A stretch of DNA of 41,772 nucleotides, taken from Candidatus Borkfalkia stercoripullorum. GTDB lineage: Bacteria; Bacillota; Clostridia; Christensenellales; Borkfalkiaceae. The notes under the pieces were generated by a model. The model made no database searches and had not been told where the DNA came from. It saw only the letters and a list, made by a program, of their open reading frames with translations. Position 1 is the stretch's first letter. The number at the start of each line of letters is the position of its first letter. Made by a program: the position numbers and the translations under genes. The DNA is taken from positions 1 through 41,772 of the forward strand of contig DWXC01000017.1 of NCBI GenBank assembly GCA_019119395.1, written 5' to 3'. Positions 15,104 to 24,009 of this stretch are shown here, in pieces.

Positions 15104-18100
15104 TCAGACCATCGGCCAGATCGCGATCTCTCCGCTTTCGTAGCGCCAGAAATTTCCGTCGCTGATCGGGTCTTCTTCGCAATAGCAATACGCGTTGTTT
15201 TTGACTGCCGTCGGGAAAGAAGTCGCCGCAAGTTCTTCCGCCGTGCCGCTGTAATAGTAAGAGCTTATGCCCGAAGAACCGAACGCGGAGGACGTGACCT
15301 TCGTCAGGCTCTTCGGAAGGACGAGCGAAGCGAGCGCATCGCAATCGCGGAACGCGTAATTGTTGATCGTCTGCACCCCCTCTTCCAGCGTGACGGAGGA
15401 AAGCGCCGTGCAACCGCGGAACAGATACTGCGGAAGGGCCGTGACGTACGAAGGCACGGTCACGCTTTCGAGCGAAGTCATGTACGCAAAGGCGTAATTC
15501 GCGAGTTCGAGTTCCTCATCCCTCGATTCCGCAAAGACGATCTCTTTGACCGCGGAATATTCGAAGGGTTGCCTGCCGATGCTCGCAACGCTTTCCGCAA
15601 CGCGCAGGGTCTGCAGCCTCTTCGTACGGGAGAACGCATAATCGCCGACCGCGCTTACCCCCGCAAGATCGAGTTCGTACGCCGTATCGGAGTTGAAGAA
15701 CATGACGTTCGAATAAGCAAAGGCATACGGGCCGACGCTCTCGCACGCGCCCGCAAAGGTTATCTTGAGAAGGTCGGTGCGGTAGAACGCATAATCGCCG
15801 ATCGCCGTGACCGCCGCGGGAACGGCGACGGAAGTAAATTTCTTCCCGATGAAAGCCCCCGCAAAAATTTCGTAAGAGGAAACCGTCTCGTCCCCCGCCG
15901 CAAACCGTGAAGGGAGAGTGAGCATGCCGTCCGCCCCGCCGTACGAAACGAGGTAGGCGCGCGCGGGCGTTTCGCCGTCCCCGGGGAGATACAGGAAGGT
16001 GTATCCGTCCGCCGAATACAGCCTGCTCTGCCCGCTTTGCGCCGTATATACGTTGTACGCTTCGGGGAGATTTTCGATGTCTCCTGCGAGGTTACGGATC
16101 TCGGCAAACGTGCATCCGCCGAAAGAACTGCTCGCGATGCTCGTAACGCTCGCGGGGACGGTCAGCGTTTTCAGAGAATAACAATTCGCGAAAGCGCTCG
16201 TTCCGATGGTCTGAACACCCCCGAGGCTGACGGAGGAGAGCAGATAACACCCGCTGAAAGCGCCGTTTCCGACCGAAACCAGCGAATCGGGCAGAGAAAC
16301 CGCCGTCAGAGCCGTACAGTTCGCAAACGCGTTGATATCGATCGAAGCGAGCGACGAGCCTTCTTCGAACGTGACCGAAGCGAGGTTCGGACAATTCGCA
16401 TAGGCATATGCGCCGACCGCCGTCACCGACGAAGGCACGGTGAGCGAGAGAATGTCATCGTTGCCGTAAAATACGCGGCTGTGGATCTCGTAACTCGTTA
16501 CGGGCGCGCCTTCTCCGACGTCGAAAGATTCGGGCAGGACGAGCGCGCCGTCTTCGCCGACTGCGCCGTGAAAGCCCGTCACATACCATTTTTCACCGGA
16601 AGCGGCGCCGTCGCGGTACAGCGTATAATCGCCGACGGTCACGTAGCCGCTGTCGGGATCGGCCGTCACGATATTCTTCGCGAACTGCGCGATGCTGCCG
16701 TTGTCCGTGCCGCCCGCCGTGAGGGTAAGGCCGCTCAGATTGACGATCTCGATGAGCGCGTAGTTGCCCGTGCATGCGGAGACCGAAGTCACGTTCGCAG
16801 GGATCGTGAGGCTTGTAAGCGAAGTGCATCCGGAAATGCCCGCGAGAGAAGAAAGTTGGCTGTCCGCGCCGAACACGACGGACGAAAGCGACGTGCAGCC
16901 GTTGAAAGCGTTGCTGCCGATCGAAGTCACGGCGTCGGGTATGCCGATCTCTTCCAGGGATACGCAGTCGGCAAAACAGTTCGCGGGGATCGCCTCGACG
17001 CCGCCGCCCAGCGCGATGTTTTCGAGGGAAGAACACCCGCTGAACATCGTGCCTCCCAAAACGCAGTTTGCGGGAAGCGCGATCGCCTGCAGCGCGGCGC
17101 AGCCCCTGAAGGTCTGATTTCCGAAGGTGACCGTGCCCGAATTTTCATTGAAGTCGACTGCCGCGAGGTTTTTGCAGTTTGAAAACGAGTCGGAACCCGT
17201 GTCCGTAAGCGTCGGCGAGAATTTGACCGTTTTTACGGCGGTGCTCATGAACGCCGCATTTCCTATCGAGGAGAAGGCGGTCAGATCGGCAGTCCCTTCC
17301 GTGTCCGAATTGAACCGGGAAAGGGACGTGCAGCCCGAGAAAGTCGAATTGGGGAGAGCGCCGCCGAGTTCCGCGAGGACGGAAGCGGAAACGATGCCCG
17401 TGCATCCGCTGAAAACGGACGTGCCGAGCGAAGCCACGCCCGCGGGCACGGAAACCGTTTCCAGGGACGCGCAGTTCATGAACGCGCTGTTGCCGATGCT
17501 CTCCAGCCCCGAAGGCAAATCGGCGCTTTCAAGCGAAGAGCAATTGTAAAACGCGCTGCTTCCGATCGTTTTCAGCCCTGCGGGCAGGGATATGCTTTGA
17601 AGAGCGGTGCAGCCGTAAAACGCGTTGTTCGGTATTTCCGTGACGGCCGCGTTCAGCGCGACGCCGCCCTTTATCCCGCAGTTCCGGAAGGCGAACGCGC
17701 CGACAGAAGTCACGCCCGAAAGGTTTGCGCTTTCCAGAGCCGTGCAGCCCGCAAAGGCGCCGACGCCCACCGTTTTCAGATTGCTCCCGAAAACGACCGT
17801 TTTGATCTCGGTATGATCCATAAACACGCCCGACTGCAAGACCGTGCCGAACATCGTCGTGCCGTCCGCGATCGCCGTGACGGGCAGGCCGTTGTATGTA
17901 TCGGGCACGGCGACGGTGTCCCACGCGCGGCTGGCATATTCGGTGAGCGTATACCCCTGTTCGTCGTCGTTGAGGGCGAACGTCATGTCGTCCTCCTGCG
18001 CGTGCCCGCACGTTTCGCACACGCCGTCTTTATACGTATGCCCCGTGGCGCGTTCGATGGTGCGCACGCCAAGCACTTCCTGCTTGGTCGCGTCGGCATA

Positions 18101-19309
18101 CGTCGTGCGCACGCCGTCCTGCGTGCAGCTCGCGCTCGTTTCCGTCACGTTGTCGGGCAAAGAAGTATCCTCGCCCGTTTCGAGGTTGAATTCATAATGC
18201 GTGCCGTTCGTCAGGTAAATATGCAGGACGGGCGCTTCGTAAACGATGTTCGAAATGCCGACGCCCTGCGCGCCGTCGTCGCCCTTCACGAGCCCCGCGT
18301 CCAGCCGCGTTCCGTCGGAAAGGGTGAGGATGAGGTGTCCGTTATCGTCGATTTCCGCATCCTTGATGCCGGAAACCGCTTCATCGGGTTCCTCGGGCGT
18401 TTCGATCTCCGTCATGCCGTTGATGGTGAGCACCGCCGCGGAAGAGCTGGACGAGGACGCGCTGTTGCAGAACTGCGCACCCATCACCTGCGAATTGACG
18501 AAAAAGGTCAATTCGAGTTCTTTGAGGTCTTGCAGTTCCCCTACGTTGTCGAGGATCATGTCGATGCCCGTCACGTAGCGCACCTGCGTGTAATTCGTTC
18601 CCCCGTCGGGGTCGGGCGCGTTGACGAGGTCGTCCTCGGCGGAGAGGGTGTACGTGACCCCTTCGGTCACGAGGTTTCCGTCCTTGTCGTAATAGCCGAT
18701 CGTGCCGTTTTCCACTTCTTCGCGCTCCGAAGTCGCGTTCGTGCCCTCGGGGTCGATGAACGTGTCGCAGGAAACGGTGAAAATGGTCACCTGGCTCTTA
18801 TCCGTCACCATGCTCAGGAGATACCTGCCGTCCGAAAGTTCGCTGATCGTCGAACTGACGTACAACCCGTCGCCGAACTCCACGCCGCCCATCGCGTTGA
18901 TGTACGCGCTCAGGCTCGCGTCGAGTTGATAGGTCTTGCCCGTTTCGGGCGCGGCGGCGGGGGCGGCGTACAGCGTCATGTCTTCCGTGACGGAATACCC
19001 CGCAAAACTCCAGTATTCGGTCGCCCCGCTCGGGTACTTGTAGTACCACTGCGTGATCGCGTTGCCGTATTCGTCCGTATAGGAAGGGAGCACGGCCTTC
19101 CGCCCCGATTCCACTTCCTGCGTTCCGTAAACATACCCGCCTTCCGACGAAAAGGTCACCGTGAACTTTTCCGTCTGCGGGGTCACGACGGACGGCGTTT
19201 CGCCGTTCCCTTCGGAATCGCATGCGGAGAGCACCGCGCCCGCGCCCAGGGCAAGGGCGAGACTCATCGCGCATGCCGCAAATTTTCTGCCTTTTGTTCC
19301 TTTTTTCAT
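15104..19309 (-). CDS. Giant lipoprotein: Shp-like domain plus BspA-type LRR array
   Basis: A 1401-residue surface protein. Signal peptide 1-29 with lipobox LSAC (Cys30). Residues about 47-116 resemble an InlB-type beta repeat. Residues about 128-298 are homologous to the small lipoprotein at 22063-22659: shared YINAMGGVEFG (Met140), a VTIFTVSCDTFID block, GTIGYYDKDGNLVTEGVTYT, and VNSQVMGAQF (Met276). A Ser-rich linker follows, then GHTYKDGVCETCGH (about 423-436). From about 470 to the end there are more than twenty LRR_5/BspA-type repeats (FSGCTSL, IGNSAFMNC and similar), broken twice by ...SYEI... spacers, ending GNFWRYESGEIAIWPMV as BspA-like proteins do. There is no LPXTG motif. It is last in the haem operon, 21 bp after the ATPase, with AAAGGAG upstream. 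I infer a surface haem or haemoprotein receptor, the counterpart of streptococcal Shr. The lipoprotein and LRR calls are firm; haem binding is inference. Confidence 0.85.
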   Translation of the reverse strand: MKKGTKGRKFAACAMSLALALGAGAVLSACDSEGNGETPSVVTPQTEKFTVTFSSEGGYVYGTQEVESGRKAVLPSYTDEYGNAITQWYYKYPSGATEYWSFAGYSVTEDMTLYAAPAAAPETGKTYQLDASLSAYINAMGGVEFGDGLYVSSTISELSDGRYLLSMVTDKSQVTIFTVSCDTFIDPEGTNATSEREEVENGTIGYYDKDGNLVTEGVTYTLSAEDDLVNAPDPDGGTNYTQVRYVTGIDMILDNVGELQDLKELELTFFVNSQVMGAQFCNSASSSSSSAAVLTINGMTEIETPEEPDEAVSGIKDAEIDDNGHLILTLSDGTRLDAGLVKGDDGAQGVGISNIVYEAPVLHIYLTNGTHYEFNLETGEDTSLPDNVTETSASCTQDGVRTTYADATKQEVLGVRTIERATGHTYKDGVCETCGHAQEDDMTFALNDDEQGYTLTEYASRAWDTVAVPDTYNGLPVTAIADGTTMFGTVLQSGVFMDHTEIKTVVFGSNLKTVGVGAFAGCTALESANLSGVTSVGAFAFRNCGIKGGVALNAAVTEIPNNAFYGCTALQSISLPAGLKTIGSSAFYNCSSLESADLPSGLESIGNSAFMNCASLETVSVPAGVASLGTSVFSGCTGIVSASVLAELGGALPNSTFSGCTSLSRFNSDTEGTADLTAFSSIGNAAFMSTAVKTVKFSPTLTDTGSDSFSNCKNLAAVDFNENSGTVTFGNQTFRGCAALQAIALPANCVLGGTMFSGCSSLENIALGGGVEAIPANCFADCVSLEEIGIPDAVTSIGSNAFNGCTSLSSVVFGADSQLSSLAGISGCTSLTSLTIPANVTSVSACTGNYALIEIVNLSGLTLTAGGTDNGSIAQFAKNIVTADPDSGYVTVGDYTLYRDGAASGEKWYVTGFHGAVGEDGALVLPESFDVGEGAPVTSYEIHSRVFYGNDDILSLTVPSSVTAVGAYAYANCPNLASVTFEEGSSLASIDINAFANCTALTAVSLPDSLVSVGNGAFSGCYLLSSVSLGGVQTIGTSAFANCYSLKTLTVPASVTSIASSSFGGCTFAEIRNLAGDIENLPEAYNVYTAQSGQSRLYSADGYTFLYLPGDGETPARAYLVSYGGADGMLTLPSRFAAGDETVSSYEIFAGAFIGKKFTSVAVPAAVTAIGDYAFYRTDLLKITFAGACESVGPYAFAYSNVMFFNSDTAYELDLAGVSAVGDYAFSRTKRLQTLRVAESVASIGRQPFEYSAVKEIVFAESRDEELELANYAFAYMTSLESVTVPSYVTALPQYLFRGCTALSSVTLEEGVQTINNYAFRDCDALASLVLPKSLTKVTSSAFGSSGISSYYYSGTAEELAATSFPTAVKNNAYCYCEEDPISDGNFWRYESGEIAIWPMV

Positions 19310-19330: not shown

Positions 19331-20110
19331 TTATTCGAAAATACAAATTTTTTTATCCTGCACCGTCGCCAGTTTCGCGTCCACGCCGTAAACCTCGCGC
19401 AGCCGCTCTTCGGTGATCACTTCCTCCGCGGAGCCCGTCGCGAGTATTTTGCCGTGCTTCATCATGACGACGTTGTCGGCATACCGGATGGTTTGGTTGA
19501 TGTCGTGCAGCACCATGAGCACCGTCGTGCCGTGTTCGCGGTTGAACGAACGGATCAGGTTCAGGATCTCGTACTGGTAATGCACGTCGAGATAGGTCGT
19601 GATCTCGTCGAGCAGAAGCGTTTCGCGCGTTTGGGCAAGCGCGAGCGCGAGCCATACCCTTTGCATCTGCCCGCCCGAAAGTTCCCCGACCTGCTTTTCG
19701 GCAAACTCCGCGGTGTGCGTCTCTTCGAGCGCGCGGTCTACCGCTTCGAAATCGTCGGTTGTCGCGCGGGGAAACATCATGTTGTGATAGGCCGTCCGCC
19801 CCATCGAAACGAGCCGCCTGACCGTCATGTCGTCGGGCACGGTGTTGTATTGGTGCACCGCCGCGACGCGGCGGGCATAGTCCTTCCTCGGGATCTCGGA
19901 AAGATCTTTCCCGTCGAACACGATTTTTCCCGATCTCGGCCGGTATGTTTTTGTGAGAAGGGCGAAAACCGTCGTTTTGCCGCAGCCGTTCGGCCCGATG
20001 AGCGCGGTGACTTTGCCCTTCGGCACGACCAGATCGACGCCGTCGAGCACCTGCGCCGTCTTTTCGTACCCGAACGAAACGCCCGAAAGTTCGAAAATAT
20101 TGTCAGGCAT
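19331..20110 (-). CDS. Haem/siderophore ABC transporter ATPase
   Basis: A 259-residue ATP-binding subunit of the FepC/FecE class. Walker A GPNGCGKTT (about 38-46), Q-loop AAVHQYNTVPDDMTV, signature LSGGQMQRVWLALAL (about 144-158), Walker B LLLDE, and the switch His in VLHDINQTIRYADNVV. The residue after Walker B is Ile (DEITTYLD) where the family nearly always has Pro; the catalytic Glu is kept. The start overlaps the permease gene by 8 bp. It powers the import complex with the two preceding genes. Confidence 0.93.
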   Translation of the reverse strand: MPDNIFELSGVSFGYEKTAQVLDGVDLVVPKGKVTALIGPNGCGKTTVFALLTKTYRPRSGKIVFDGKDLSEIPRKDYARRVAAVHQYNTVPDDMTVRRLVSMGRTAYHNMMFPRATTDDFEAVDRALEETHTAEFAEKQVGELSGGQMQRVWLALALAQTRETLLLDEITTYLDVHYQYEILNLIRSFNREHGTTVLMVLHDINQTIRYADNVVMMKHGKILATGSAEEVITEERLREVYGVDAKLATVQDKKICIFE

Positions 20111-21170
20111 GTTTTTTACTCCTCAAAAGAAGCACGATGAACAGCGGCCCGCCGATGACGGACATGATGATGCTCACGCCGATCTCGTAAGGATAGGCGA
20201 TCCACCGCCCCACCGTGTCCGCCACGAGGAAAAAGAGCGCCCCCAGCAGCGCGCTGTACGGGATGAGTTTTTTATGGTCGTTCCCCACCAGAAGCCGCGC
20301 GATGTGCGGCACGATGAGCCCGAGGAAACTGATGCTCCCCACCACCGCCGTGGAAGCGGACGCCAGGAACACCGCGACGGCGGAGACTTGCAGGCGCGTC
20401 CTCGCCACGTTGACGCCGATGCTGCCCGCGAGCCTGTCGGACAGGGCAAGCAGGTTGCACTTTTTGATACAGAACACGCACGCCGCCGCACCGATCGCGA
20501 CGTATACGGCGAGCGTTTTGACGTCGTCCCAGTCTTTGAGCGAAATGTTCGACTCAACGATGCTCGCCGCGCCCGAATAATTGTTGCCCGTCATTTGGTT
20601 GAAGGCTTCCGAAAGCCCCGTGAACAGCGCGTTGACCGCTATGCCGACGAGGATGAGCCGAACGGGGCTCAGACCTCCCTTCCAGGAAAGCGCGTACACG
20701 ATGACGAACGCCAGCACCCCGCCCGCGAAGGAAAACAGGGGCGTAAGGGCGCCGAGCGCGGGAAAAAACGCCGTGACGAGCACCGCCACGAACGACGAGC
20801 CCGCGCTGATGCCGATGATGCCCGGGTCGGCGAGCGGGCTGCGCATGACCGCCTGGGTGATGACGCCCGCGGCCGACATCGCCATGCCGCCGAGTATCGC
20901 CACGAATATGCGCGGAAACCGAAGCTGCAAAATGATGTATACGTCCTCGTCGTATTCGACAAAAATGCCCTTCAGCAACTGCCAAAAGCCCACTTTGATA
21001 CCGCCGATATTCGCCGCAAGCACGGCAAAGACCACGAGCAGCGCCGCCGTGACGGCGAAGGCGAGAACGGTCTGCAAAGCTCCGCCCCGTTTCCGCTTTT
21101 TCTTCTTTTCGGAGATTCCTTCCGCGCACCCGCACGCGCGTTCGTCCGTTTTCTTTTCCGTCTGCTCCAT
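20103..21170 (-). CDS. FecCD/BtuC-type haem ABC permease (IsdF-like)
   Basis: A 355-residue integral membrane protein with about ten hydrophobic segments. Family motifs are RFPRIFVAILGGMAMSAAGV followed by TQAVMRSPLADPGIIGISAG, the coupling region RLAGSIGVNVARTRL, and FLGLIVPHIARLLVGNDHKK near the C-terminus. The N-terminal 36 residues are basic and cytoplasmic. ATG 21170 was taken as start; a TTG three codons earlier overlaps the previous stop. It lies 5 bp after the binding-protein gene and overlaps the ATPase gene. A single homodimer-forming permease fits the IsdEF/HtsBC arrangement. Confidence 0.92.
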   Translation of the reverse strand: MEQTEKKTDERACGCAEGISEKKKKRKRGGALQTVLAFAVTAALLVVFAVLAANIGGIKVGFWQLLKGIFVEYDEDVYIILQLRFPRIFVAILGGMAMSAAGVITQAVMRSPLADPGIIGISAGSSFVAVLVTAFFPALGALTPLFSFAGGVLAFVIVYALSWKGGLSPVRLILVGIAVNALFTGLSEAFNQMTGNNYSGAASIVESNISLKDWDDVKTLAVYVAIGAAACVFCIKKCNLLALSDRLAGSIGVNVARTRLQVSAVAVFLASASTAVVGSISFLGLIVPHIARLLVGNDHKKLIPYSALLGALFFLVADTVGRWIAYPYEIGVSIIMSVIGGPLFIVLLLRSKKHA

Positions 21171-21175
21171 ACCGC

Positions 21176-22066
21176 TCAAGCCTCGGCAAAAACCGTATCC
21201 GTAAGATAATCGAATGACTCATACCACCCGAGATTCGCGCTCATGCCGAACCCGTCGTCCGAGGAGAGATAGTACACTTCCCCTTCCCTCACCGCGCGGA
21301 AGTTCTGCCATATCGCGCCCGTTTCGATCTCTTCGCGCATATATTTGAAGGCGTTTTCCTCATCGTAATGCGCAAACACGACGATCTTGTCGGGGTCGGT
21401 CTGGATCATATGTTCGGTGTTGACCGCCGCAACGCCCGAACCGTCGGTGATATAGTTTTCGTCGTATACGTTGACGCCGCCCGCAAGTTCGATAAGGCTT
21501 CCGACATACGAATCCGCCGTGACGATGAGGTAAAACCTGCCCGGGTACGCCATGAGCACGAGCACGGTGGAAGGGTCGTCCGACTGCACGCGGTTTTCCT
21601 CGACGTACGTTTCGTATTCCGCGCGCAGCGCCGCCGCCTCCGTCTGTTTGCCGTACTGCTCGCCGAGGGCGTCGATATCGCCGTACATCCCCTCCACGTC
21701 GGACAGGTCGAAATACTGCGCATGGATGCCCGCGCTCTCGAACTGCGCGGAAAGCCCCGCTTCGAGCGAACGCGGCACGATGACCGTTTCGGGGTTGATC
21801 CGGCTCAATATTTCCATGTCGGGAGACATCGCGCTGCCGATCGTCCTCACGTCTTTATACCTTTCGGGAAGTTCTATGTCCTCCGCCGCAGACGGGATGC
21901 CGACCACATTGTCGATACCGAGTTTATCGAGGATCTGGCAGATCGCCATGGAAGTGGTCGCGATGCCGTCCGGCTCGCTTCTCTTGCCCGCAAGGCCGCA
22001 CCCGCCGAGGCAGGATGCCGCCGCGATCCCCGCGCAAGCGAGCGCGGCAACTTTTACGCCCTTCAT
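21176..22066 (-). CDS. isdE: IsdE-like haem-binding lipoprotein of ABC importer
   Basis: A 296-residue extracytoplasmic lipoprotein (lipobox CLGGC, Cys23) of the class III periplasmic-binding fold. It follows IsdE closely: ILDKLGIDNVVGIP, LPERYKDVRTIGSAMSPDME, LSDVEGMYGDIDALGEQYGK, SYVGSLIELAGGVNVY, AVNTEHMIQTDPDKIVV, GFGMSANL. In staphylococcal IsdE the haem iron is held by a Met in the MSPDMEI segment and a His before the C-lobe helices; here Met80 (AMSPDME) and His233 (VVFAHYDEE) occupy these places. The ATG overlaps the upstream lipoprotein stop as ATGA. It hands haem to the permease encoded next. Confidence 0.9.
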   Translation of the reverse strand: MKGVKVAALACAGIAAASCLGGCGLAGKRSEPDGIATTSMAICQILDKLGIDNVVGIPSAAEDIELPERYKDVRTIGSAMSPDMEILSRINPETVIVPRSLEAGLSAQFESAGIHAQYFDLSDVEGMYGDIDALGEQYGKQTEAAALRAEYETYVEENRVQSDDPSTVLVLMAYPGRFYLIVTADSYVGSLIELAGGVNVYDENYITDGSGVAAVNTEHMIQTDPDKIVVFAHYDEENAFKYMREEIETGAIWQNFRAVREGEVYYLSSDDGFGMSANLGWYESFDYLTDTVFAEA

Positions 22067-22659
22067 GCGGAGACCTCCGTCAGGTCGTCCCAATCGACGG
22101 TGAGCGTCGCCGCGCGCGTAACGCTTCCGTCCGCCGTGATCTTGAACTGCGCGCCCATGACCGTGGAATTGATATAAAAAGTCAGATAATATGTATCCTT
22201 CTTTTCCGCGATCGGGAAGGTGATCGAATCGACGTAATGCACCTGTTCCTGCAAATTGTTTTCCGTCGTATCCTCGCTCAACGTGTAACTGACCCCTTCC
22301 GTGACGAGTCGATTGTCCGCATCGTAATATCCGATCGTCCCGTCCTCGGGTTCGCCCTCCACGGGGTCGGCGCCCGTGTTCGGCTCGGCGTCGATGAAGG
22401 TATAGCAGGTGATGGAATAAATCGTAACGCTGCTCTTCGTAAAATACAGCGTGAGCGACATGGAACCGTCCTCTTCCTTCGCGTAACGCGTCTGCGTGAG
22501 GAGCGGCTCGCCGAACTCCACCCCGCCCATCGCGGGTATGTAACAACTCAAAGACGACCCTACGGTATACGTCCCCGCGGCCTCTTCCTTTTCGCACCCG
22601 CCGAACGCCGCCAGCGCGCCCGCCAGAAGCATAGCCGCAAGCATGACTGCCTTTTTCAT
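22063..22659 (-). CDS. Small lipoprotein, Shp-like putative haem-binding domain
   Basis: A 198-residue protein: signal peptide 1-21, lipobox FGGC (Cys22), then a single domain of about 170 residues. The domain recurs in the giant LRR lipoprotein of the same operon: SCYIPAMGGVEFG (Met44), TKSSVTIYSITCYTFID, GTIGYYDADNRLVTEGVSYT, FYINSTVMGAQF (Met168). The second block recalls the region of streptococcal Shp that carries one of its two axial Met ligands (EPMGREVVF), and the strand pattern around the first Met is also similar. AAGGAG precedes ATG 22659; the longer open frame upstream is the leader. First gene of the operon, directly before isdE, the place IsdC or Shp holds elsewhere. Haem binding is inference; lipoprotein status is firm. 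Confidence 0.75.
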   Translation of the reverse strand: MKKAVMLAAMLLAGALAAFGGCEKEEAAGTYTVGSSLSCYIPAMGGVEFGEPLLTQTRYAKEEDGSMSLTLYFTKSSVTIYSITCYTFIDAEPNTGADPVEGEPEDGTIGYYDADNRLVTEGVSYTLSEDTTENNLQEQVHYVDSITFPIAEKKDTYYLTFYINSTVMGAQFKITADGSVTRAATLTVDWDDLTEVSA

Positions 22660-22701: not shown

Positions 22702-22717
22702 GTTCGTATATGCGAAC
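22702..22717. promoter_or_regulatory. Operator-like site, GTTCGTATATGCGAAC
   Basis: One mismatch from a perfect 16-bp palindrome of the GTTCGC-N4-GCGAAC type. It is 43 bp before the first haem-operon gene, inside the leader. Confidence 0.6.
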
Positions 22718-22815: not shown

Positions 22816-22831
22816 GTTCGCATATGCGAAC
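22816..22831. promoter_or_regulatory. Operator-like site, GTTCGCATATGCGAAC (perfect)
   Basis: A perfect 16-bp palindrome about 55-70 bp downstream of the predicted transcription start of the haem operon. The same arms recur four more times within 750 bp, next to the regulator gene at 23084-23455. Confidence 0.65.
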
Positions 22832-22890: not shown

Positions 22891-22920
22891 ATTATAGCAG
22901 ACCGGCGCGCCGCATGTCAA
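22891..22920 (-). promoter_or_regulatory. Consensus sigma-A promoter of the haem operon
   Basis: Minus strand TTGACA (22915-22920), 18-bp spacer, TATAAT (22891-22896): consensus hexamers. The transcript would carry a leader of about 225 nt containing both operator-like palindromes. Confidence 0.85.
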
Positions 22921-22938
22921 TAGGTAACCTAGGCTAAC
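22921..22938. promoter_or_regulatory. DtxR/IdeR-like iron box next to -35
   Basis: TAGGTAACCTAGGCTAAC directly abuts the -35 hexamer. It contains TAGGT-A-ACCTA (an 11-bp odd palindrome) overlapping CCTAGGCTAAC, both recalling the DtxR/IdeR consensus (TTAGGTTAG-CTAACCTAA), although the full 19-bp match is only partial. A DtxR-type protein is encoded 0.7 kb away. Confidence 0.45.
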
Positions 22939-23083: not shown

Positions 23084-23455
23084 TTATGTACGATCTTTCT
23101 TGCGCAAATAGGAAAGAAGCGCCGAACGGCTGTGTTCCCCCACCGCGCAGACAATGCCCACCGCGTCCGCAAAGGCGGCGGTTTTCGGCGTGCGACAGCA
23201 CTTTTCGAGCGCGTTCCGAACAAAATCGACGCATAACATGTATTCATCCAGTAGTTTTTTGCCCCGTTCCGTCAAAAAAATGCGGCTGCGCTCTCCCCGA
23301 GCCATCATGCCGCCCGCTTCCAGCCGTTCGCTCATCCTGTACACGCTCACCTTGGTAACGCCGAGTTTATCGGCAATATCCGTAAGCCGCGCGCCGATGC
23401 CTTCTTTTGAAAGCGAATGCGTTGCTATAAGGTATTTGAGTTCCGAAGCCGACAT
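23084..23455 (-). CDS. Divergent DtxR/MarR-like winged-helix regulator
   Basis: A 123-residue DNA-binding protein. The N-terminal winged helix is RLTDIADKLGVTKVSVYRMS with the wing GERSRIFLTERGKKLLDEY. The C-terminal helical part holds Cys75, Cys86, Cys87, Cys103 and His107 (IVCAVGEHSRSAL). The Cys..Glu-His pattern echoes the DtxR metal site (C-R-W-E-H) with one extra residue, so a metal- or haem-responsive repressor is plausible. ATG 23455 has GAGGGAGGAAAG before it. The gene has a consensus promoter and three GTTCGC..GCGAAC-type palindromes in its 5' leader, which suggests autoregulation; the same sites sit in front of the haem operon. MarR family is the alternative label. Confidence 0.75.
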   Translation of the reverse strand: MSASELKYLIATHSLSKEGIGARLTDIADKLGVTKVSVYRMSERLEAGGMMARGERSRIFLTERGKKLLDEYMLCVDFVRNALEKCCRTPKTAAFADAVGIVCAVGEHSRSALLSYLRKKDRT

Positions 23456-23470: not shown

Positions 23471-23486
23471 ATTCGCCATTGCGAAC
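23471..23486. promoter_or_regulatory. Operator-like site, ATTCGCCATTGCGAAC
   Basis: A member of the GTTCGC-N4-GCGAAC set with one outer mismatch, 16 bp before the regulator start codon. Confidence 0.5.
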
Positions 23487-23514: not shown

Positions 23515-23530
23515 GTTCGCACAAGCGAAC
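23515..23530. promoter_or_regulatory. Operator-like site, GTTCGCACAAGCGAAC
   Basis: Perfect 6-bp arms with a 4-bp centre in the regulator leader, about 40-55 bp downstream of the predicted start of transcription. Confidence 0.6.
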
Positions 23531-23541
23531 AGAGCCCTCTT

Positions 23542-23575
23542 AAAACAGGAGTTCGCACAACCGAACTCCTGTTTT
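23542..23575. promoter_or_regulatory. Inverted repeat with embedded operator-like site at +1
   Basis: A 14-bp perfect stem (23542-23555 with 23562-23575) around CACAAC contains GTTCGCACAACCGAAC (23551-23566). It begins immediately after the -10 box, so it covers the transcription start of the regulator gene. It could be an operator, a hairpin at the 5' end of the mRNA, or a terminator for the plus strand (TTTTATTAT follows). Confidence 0.55.
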
Positions 23576-23643: not shown

Positions 23644-24009
23644 TCAGCCCTGCCCCGCGTATTTTTTGACGATCTCAAACAGCTCGTCCGAAATGACGTG
23701 TTCTATGCGGCAGGCGTTTTCCTCCGCCGTGGCGGGGTCTGCGCCCATTTTGATCAGGGCGGCGGTGATGACTTTATGGCGTTCGAAAACGCTTTCCGCC
23801 TTTTTCCTGCCCTCGGCGGTCAGGATGAGTTCTCCCCCCTGCCCGAAGTCGATATAGCCGTGTTTTTTGAGCAAATTGACCGCGCGGGAAACGGACGACT
23901 TCGCATATCCGAGTTCGTCCACGACGTCCACCGAACGGACGGCGGACTTTTTTTCGCCTATGCGCAGAATGGTTTCGAGATACATTTCTTCCGATTCGTG
24001 ATTTTTCAT
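23644..24009 (-). CDS. DtxR/IdeR-type iron-dependent repressor (two-domain form)
   Basis: A 121-residue metal-dependent regulator. The winged helix has RSVDVVDELGYAKSSVSRAV and the dimerisation domain ERHKVITAALIKMGADPATA. The primary-site ligands of DtxR (Met10, Cys102, Glu105, His106) are matched by Met9 in EMYLETIL and Cys100, Glu103, His104 in NACRIEHVISDE, and His78 matches the ancillary His79. The Met/Cys pair points to an iron-sensing rather than manganese-sensing (MntR) type. The SH3-like third domain of DtxR is absent. ATG 24009 was chosen from CAGGGGAAATCGC. It has its own promoter and is the likely iron sensor for the adjacent haem operon. Confidence 0.9.
   Translation of the reverse strand: MKNHESEEMYLETILRIGEKKSAVRSVDVVDELGYAKSSVSRAVNLLKKHGYIDFGQGGELILTAEGRKKAESVFERHKVITAALIKMGADPATAEENACRIEHVISDELFEIVKKYAGQG

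Follow-up and report, generated by a model that had tools for sequence, protein, structure and literature searches.

Organization of the locus

The window analysed here, a stretch of 41,772 nucleotides from Candidatus Borkfalkia stercoripullorum (contig DWXC01000017.1), includes a group of five genes that are all encoded on the minus strand, in the order small lipoprotein (P0001), substrate-binding protein, permease, ATPase and giant surface lipoprotein (P0002). The ATG of the binding-protein gene overlaps the stop codon of P0001, and two genes for DtxR/MntR-like regulators are located upstream of the operon. The features are:

15104-19309, minus strand: P0002, giant surface lipoprotein, 1401 amino acids; shared domain at about residues 122-300, Met140 and Met276
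18407-18949, minus strand: DNA of the shared domain within P0002, from a search of the own assembly
19331-20110, minus strand: ABC ATPase of the iron/haem/corrinoid type (Pfam/NCBIfam-type family matches)
20103-21179, minus strand: FecCD-type permease; the coordinates are those of the longest reading frame, and translation may begin further in
21176-22066, minus strand: IsdE/HtsA-type substrate-binding lipoprotein, 296 amino acids; Met80 and His233 are aligned to a Met and a His of IsdE
22063-22659, minus strand: P0001, small lipoprotein, 198 amino acids; NEAT/Shp-like domain at about residues 26-195, Met44 and Met168
22816-22831, no strand assigned: second palindrome GTTCGCATATGCGAAC in the leader, with a one-mismatch copy at 22702-22717
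22891-22938, minus strand: promoter-like site with an imperfect palindrome GTTAGCCTAGGTTACC (22923-22938), TTGACA (22915-22920), an 18-base spacer and TATAAT (22891-22896)
23084-23455, minus strand: short MntR-like helix-turn-helix protein (E=6e-13, under the model cut-off); three GTTCGC-type palindromes ahead of the gene
23644-24009, minus strand: DtxR/MntR-family metal-dependent repressor (family-model matches)

The reading frame of P0001 is intact and encodes a signal peptide as well as the lipobox-like sequence FGGC. P0002 carries the lipobox LSAC and, from about residue 534, BspA-type LRR_5 repeats. A weak Flg_new-like repeat at residues 49-115 of P0002 stayed under the Pfam cut-off, and P0002 showed no SLH match.

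A domain shared by the small and the giant lipoprotein

A preliminary description of this DNA had proposed that both lipoproteins share one domain, and this is the case: the mature part of P0001 and residues 122-280 of P0002 are homologous, sharing the same residue at 73 of 160 aligned sites (46%) in a single BLASTP with E=2e-32. The sequence blocks quoted for them (PAMGGVEFG/NAMGGVEFG, TKSSVTI/DKSQVTI, GTIGYYD...LVTEGV.YT and VMGAQF) are found, and all four numbers given for Met44 and Met168 of P0001 and Met140 and Met276 of P0002 are correct. In the own assembly, which is 1.87 Mb in size and about 92% complete, the domain is found in two clear copies, the second at 1.8e-32, plus one match at E=0.1.

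The domain gave no significant match to Pfam, NCBIfam or PDB sequences. Matches to PF10634 (Fe2+ transport protein, E=0.14) and to a beta-galactosidase (E=0.08) were at chance level and were rejected. No copy was detected in 72,556 plasmid records, and the literature covered, mostly open-access, yielded no description of the family. The shared domain is real, conserved and described by none of the libraries searched.

Distribution of the domain and conservation of the two methionines

A contig scan gave 31 pattern matches in seven loci; one is from a Treponema and the others are from Clostridia MAGs, among them Candidatus Enterenecus and Candidatus Coproplasma. Two of the six scan patterns include the Met blocks; searches of the sampled genomes are free of this bias. 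Carriers amounted to 8 of 301 genomes at family level, 4 of 396 at order level, 1 of 391 at class level and 1 of 398 at phylum level, in overlapping samples that each include the own genome, which is the only carrier at class and phylum level. The domain family is therefore rare.

Altogether 101 domain rows reduce to 35 distinct copies, of which two are truncated at the N-terminal end and one at the C-terminal end. Of the 33 copies reaching the first Met site, 32 have a clear Met there, and the second Met is present in 33 of 34. Both exceptions concern the second domain of L051/L027, in which the first site is ambiguous (IIPMGETMEVNF) and the second Met is replaced by Thr (SATGQQF); its tandem neighbour keeps both. 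This degenerate domain is part of a tandem two-domain lipoprotein (L051:5038-6294, G629). An alignment of homologues, set in the preliminary description as a test for both Met residues, thus shows them kept in nearly all copies, including copies of only 33-47% identity and one from a Treponema. In an alignment of 15 rows (A1), Met44, Met168, Tyr31, Tyr112, Tyr125 and Tyr142 (P0001 numbering) are invariant and there is no invariant His or Cys. Mature P0001 contains three Met residues, the third of which, Met67, is kept in 1 of these 15 rows.

It had also been argued that two copies within one operon keeping exactly these residues suggest function. The residues are kept; the argument from two copies is weak by itself, as two given residues would be expected to agree by chance in about 1 of 5 cases at 46% identity. 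The Met pair is notable because it is conserved over 35 distinct copies, rather than in two.

We compared the two Met hairpins (LSCYIPA-MGGVEFG and LTFYINSTVMGAQF) for internal duplication, too. In the two best of nine A1 rows the score was reached by 8 and 20 of 500 shuffles, and in the other seven rows by 61 to 350 of 500.

Two further copies were observed at the margins of the distribution. A domain fragment with an internal stop (L052:1145-1438, genome G421) is probably a decayed copy; this genome, like G328, has no IsdE-family match at E<=1e-10. In Treponema sp. RUI111 a 444-aa protein (L024/L059:7632-8963) ends in one domain copy with both Met residues kept. The best IsdE-family match of this organism reaches 97 bits, far under the cut-off, and no haem transporter lies beside the domain gene.

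Predicted fold and relation to NEAT domains and Shp

Structures of both domains were predicted by AlphaFold2 with 15 rows; the two models share one sequence set and are therefore not fully independent. The models of the P0001 domain (pLDDT 90.9, pTM 0.87) and of the P0002 domain (pLDDT 87.2, pTM 0.85) consist almost wholly of strands and loops. In Foldseek searches against the PDB the top match of both was a haem-bound NEAT domain, that of IsdA for one model (E 0.027, probability 1.00, TM-score by target 0.56) and NEAT2 of Hbp2 for the other (E 0.010, probability 1.00, TM-score by target 0.53). The bis-methionyl Shp (2q7a) ranked fourth and fifth, with probabilities of 0.91 and 0.92, and among the best 50 of 568 and the best 50 of 671 matches, all those with a probability above 0.5 were NEAT proteins or Shp. 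Both models match the immunoglobulin-like beta sandwich of NEAT domains with moderate strength: no E-value was below 0.001, and the TM-scores of IsdA, Hbp2 and Shp lie between 0.38 and 0.57.

Met44 (domain residue 19) comes directly behind the strand 9-16 in the model of P0001, and Met168 (domain residue 143) is placed between the strands 131-140 and 145-147, ahead of the last long strand (159-164). The haem-ligand motif YxxxY of NEAT domains is absent between the last two long strands, where [VILM]MG.[QE]F with the conserved Met is found instead.

The comparison at sequence level was not significant. The Pfam model PF05031 (NEAT) matched none of the 15 domain rows up to E 10 and nothing in the own genome at E 0.001, and PF11545 (Shp) matched neither the rows nor the own genome. 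Aligned by hhalign, A1 reached probabilities of 8.6% against three Shp rows (domain 27-49 aligned with Shp 39-61), 2.2% against seven clostridial NEAT rows and 3.8% against all ten, none of them significant, vs 83% in the control of Shp against NEAT. At a loose threshold, the comparison with the ten rows was collinear over the full length and placed the VMG block on the MG block of Shp/NEAT. An ungapped profile of the second Met site of NEAT/Shp points the opposite way: of 32 copies, 31 gave their best fit at the first Met block and none at the second, with 0-12 of 300 shuffles reaching the score for 30 copies and 65 of 300 for one. In the domain family the second Met lies six residues past a strand Tyr and the Met of the first block four, a spacing that may explain part of this preference. 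A circular permutation of NEAT, a conceivable reading considered because of the profile fit to the first block, was not adopted in view of the collinear, if non-significant, hhalign result and the NEAT-like GTY.V start.

The likeness that had been noted between VMGAQF and the EPMGREVVF of Shp is not statistically significant in hhalign (8.6%), and the profile favours the first Met block; the order of the two Met sites along the chain agrees with Shp. The ligands of Shp, quoted there as Met66 and Met153, correspond to those given in the available text of PMC5026354. Since the sequence comparison is not significant, the case for NEAT/Shp is carried by fold and gene position, and we regard a NEAT/Shp-type fold as very probable.

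In a rival reading of the NEAT/Shp-like haem domain, the axial ligand might be one Met or an invariant Tyr, with the other Met packing on the haem; four Tyr residues (31, 112, 125 and 142) are invariant in the 15 rows, haem-bound NEAT structures outside S. pyogenes use Tyr according to the excerpt available of PMC12796733, and in a modelled clostridial NEAT domain a hairpin Met lies against a haem vinyl group (PMC4143258, as far as that text was available). We consider this unlikely, as YxxxY is missing at the NEAT position, where a conserved Met stands instead, and nearly every copy keeps both Met residues.

More doubtful still is a NEAT fold that binds no haem and serves for binding haemoglobin or another protein, or as a scaffold. 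The non-haem NEAT domains of IsdB and IsdH grip haemoglobin. NEAT domains without haem binding are present in each of the two proteins (PMC4143258, in the part available), and one tandem copy of our domain lacks the second Met; a non-haem domain would not, however, be expected to keep two Met residues across copies of 33-47% identity that extend to Treponema.

Transport genes

The binding protein has IsdE (TIGR03659) as its best NCBIfam family, with 227 bits over the first 281 amino acids and 232 in a second search, both under the curated cut-off of 298.65 bits; the next family reaches 53.5 bits. Among PDB entries it is closest to Lmo2184 (E=1e-42) and IsdE (E=9e-32). E-values alone do not name this protein IsdE, because TIGR03659 gives sub-cut-off matches in 8 of 14 control genomes as well. 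In the alignment with IsdE (2q8p), Met80 and His233 fall on the Met and His that serve as haem ligands of that protein, so that the axial Met/His pair of IsdE/HtsA is found by comparison with IsdE. All 14 homologues compared from related loci retain both residues; three of the 14 adjoin PF11545 (Shp) genes. The haem ligands of HtsA are Met79 and His229, as stated in the available part of PMC5026354. Genes matching PF11545 occurred in 3 of 249 phylum genomes, every one beside an IsdE-like gene; in these loci (L087-L089) the Shp gene immediately precedes the IsdE/HtsA-like gene, the same placement as that of P0001.

Cargoes differ among FecCD transporters, and two Met residues together can bind Cu(I). 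A different cargo (copper through Met, a corrinoid or a siderophore), with the transporter following it and the sub-cut-off score of the binding protein (227 vs 298.65 bits) in its favour, is nevertheless very improbable, as no other family comes near the score of IsdE and the two haem-ligand residues are retained, and for copper there is neither a Met-rich or His-rich stretch by eye nor a copper protein among the best 50 Foldseek matches of either model.

Related loci and surface anchors

Besides the window, 16 related loci were examined (a set of 15 and L019), and in 12 of them binding protein, permease and ATPase are encoded near the domain gene. The other four are L049 (ATPase only) and L050, both at contig ends, the fragment L052 and the Treponema locus L059, which has no transporter genes nearby. 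Gene order differs among the loci: the domain gene comes after the ATPase gene in L048, L049 and L051 rather than ahead of the one for the binding protein, and in L060 an additional domain gene separates those for permease and ATPase.

An LRR giant is present in 6 of the 16 loci (L053-L056, L061, L062), and L057 ends inside such a gene. Other domain proteins end in a hydrophobic helix (L058_13523 with a mean hydropathy of 2.8, L060_9351 with 2.5) or, in the case of L058_7323, SLH repeats behind two domains (Pfam SLH, E=2e-31). These anchors match those of NEAT proteins. In the 624-aa frame of the last example (L058:7323-9194), the two domain copies ahead of the SLH repeats are near-identical, which suggests a recent duplication.

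Regulation

In L054 and L061 a perfect palindrome GTTAGCCATGGCTAAC is located just ahead of TTGACA. Sites resembling this palindrome with up to 3 mismatches number 11 in the window vs 12.6 by chance; because this count is not above chance, the case for the promoter palindrome rests on its position and on the relatives. The palindrome GTTCGCnnnnGCGAAC, with up to 2 mismatches, is found 14 times in the window vs 5.65 expected, a number reached by 0 of 100 shuffles, and its exact form occurs in 18 of 89 loci, many of which are overlapping stretches of the same contigs. With 0-1 mismatch it occurs five times (22702-22717, 22816-22831, 23471-23486, 23515-23530 and 23551-23566), in the leader of the domain gene and in the region before the short MntR-like gene, and it is seen in related operons, too. 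The GTTCGCnnnnGCGAAC palindromes are a candidate operator of the short MntR-like regulator and differ from the GTTAGC palindrome of the promoter region. Between 22600 and 23700 no Rfam element exceeded the gathering score, and a DtxR box consensus gave no match with up to 3 mismatches.

A putative haem relay

Taken together, we propose that the shared domain represents a new divergent branch of the NEAT/Shp fold that would hold haem between two methionines and serve a relay from the LRR giant via the small lipoprotein to the importer, a reading to which we assign a probability of roughly 0.6. That the domain binds haem is, in our judgement, highly likely; ligation by both Met residues is probable. 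The haem-domain part of what the preliminary description had suggested is well supported by the fold matches, by the IsdE/HtsA-type transporter in the operon and by the conservation of both Met residues; the residue-level resemblance to Shp (hhalign 8.6%) is not significant.

The haem iron would be held between the two conserved Met residues of the domain, the first in a loop after an early strand, the second in a hairpin before the last long strand. The LRR giant would act as outer receptor capturing haem or a haem protein, and P0001 as a relay near the membrane, which is the task of Shp. From P0001 the haem would move on to the IsdE/HtsA-like binding protein, where Met80 and His233 would take over from the two Met residues, and FecCD permease and ATPase would import it. 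The DtxR/MntR-type repressor probably turns the operon on under metal scarcity. For S. pyogenes, the available part of PMC5026354 describes such a transfer from Shp to HtsA, in which Met79 and His229 displace Met66 and Met153. The parts of a relay are encoded in the window in this order: domain gene, binding protein with Met/His, permease and ATPase. The observed basis is the homology of the copies, the conservation of both Met residues, the similarity of the models to the NEAT/Shp fold, the operon and the Met/His pair of the binding protein; beyond it, we infer haem binding as such, ligation by both Met residues, the direction of transfer and the regulation.

A bolder version is tentative, with slightly less than even chances: an undescribed bis-Met branch of the NEAT superfamily, spread over Clostridia not yet in culture and reaching as far as a Treponema, would provide LRR receptor and lipoprotein relay, with two similar Met hairpins gripping the haem from both faces. 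If this were true, neutral bis-Met haem capture would be common among anaerobes rather than a streptococcal speciality.

As the domain matches no library, such operons would probably be annotated as lipoproteins of unknown function beside a generic iron transporter. According to the available excerpt of a 2025 paper, Met ligation is a feature of the haem proteins of S. pyogenes that NEAT domains from other Gram-positive species do not show (PMC12796733). A Met pair conserved in the domain family would widen Met ligation beyond S. pyogenes, and so would the pattern in clostridial NEAT rows (A3; 7 of 24 PF05031 matches, three of them under the cut-off), all seven of which carry a late Met and six an SM motif in the early part of the domain. 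From these rows, Met-type NEAT domains may be common in Clostridia. The two copies in the window would offer a ready system for testing transfer from receptor to relay.

Comparison with known haem uptake systems

The domain is most likely a new variant within the NEAT/Shp haem-binding group, with a putative bis-Met pocket as a sound and testable hypothesis. NEAT domains (PF05031; IsdA, Hbp2, NEAT1 and NEAT2 of Shr) are its top fold matches (probability 1.00), but it has no PF05031 match and no YxxxY. Met ligation is described for Shr NEAT1 and NEAT2 and for Shp in the available part of PMC12796733.

P0002 resembles IlsA of Bacillus cereus (NEAT, LRR and SLH) in carrying a haem-type domain on an LRR surface protein (PMC2777315, available part), and the relative L058_7323 shares with IlsA the joining to SLH repeats, there of two domain copies. 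In contrast, the NEAT domain of IlsA keeps the Ser/Tyr/Tyr of IsdA (same source), and P0002 has LRR_5 repeats and a lipobox and no SLH match. HupY/LrrG is an LRR surface protein with a role in haem use. P0002 matches its NCBIfam model at E=1e-31, most strongly over the repeats, but is far under its cut-off (110 of 1250 bits). As far as described in the excerpt of PMC6593403, HupY has no known haem domain.

ChtE and ChtA of C. perfringens combine a Shp-like NEAT protein with an HtsA-like binding protein in which the Met/His ligands are kept (PMC5026354, available part). ChtE is 25% identical to Shp (same source), whereas by sequence the domain in the window fits neither of the two family models.

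From Shp of S. pyogenes (PF11545, 2q7a) the domain differs by its greater length (167 vs 148 model positions), with the conserved GTIGYYD...LVTEGV stretch, by the absence of a Pfam match, by the lipoprotein nature of P0001 and by the fusion of the second copy to LRR repeats. It shares with Shp the fold match of both models (probability 0.91 and 0.92), an MG Met in a late hairpin together with a Met in a loop before an early strand, in some relatives a C-terminal hydrophobic helix as given for Shp in the available part of PMC5026354, and the position of the gene directly upstream of that for an HtsA/IsdE-type binding protein.
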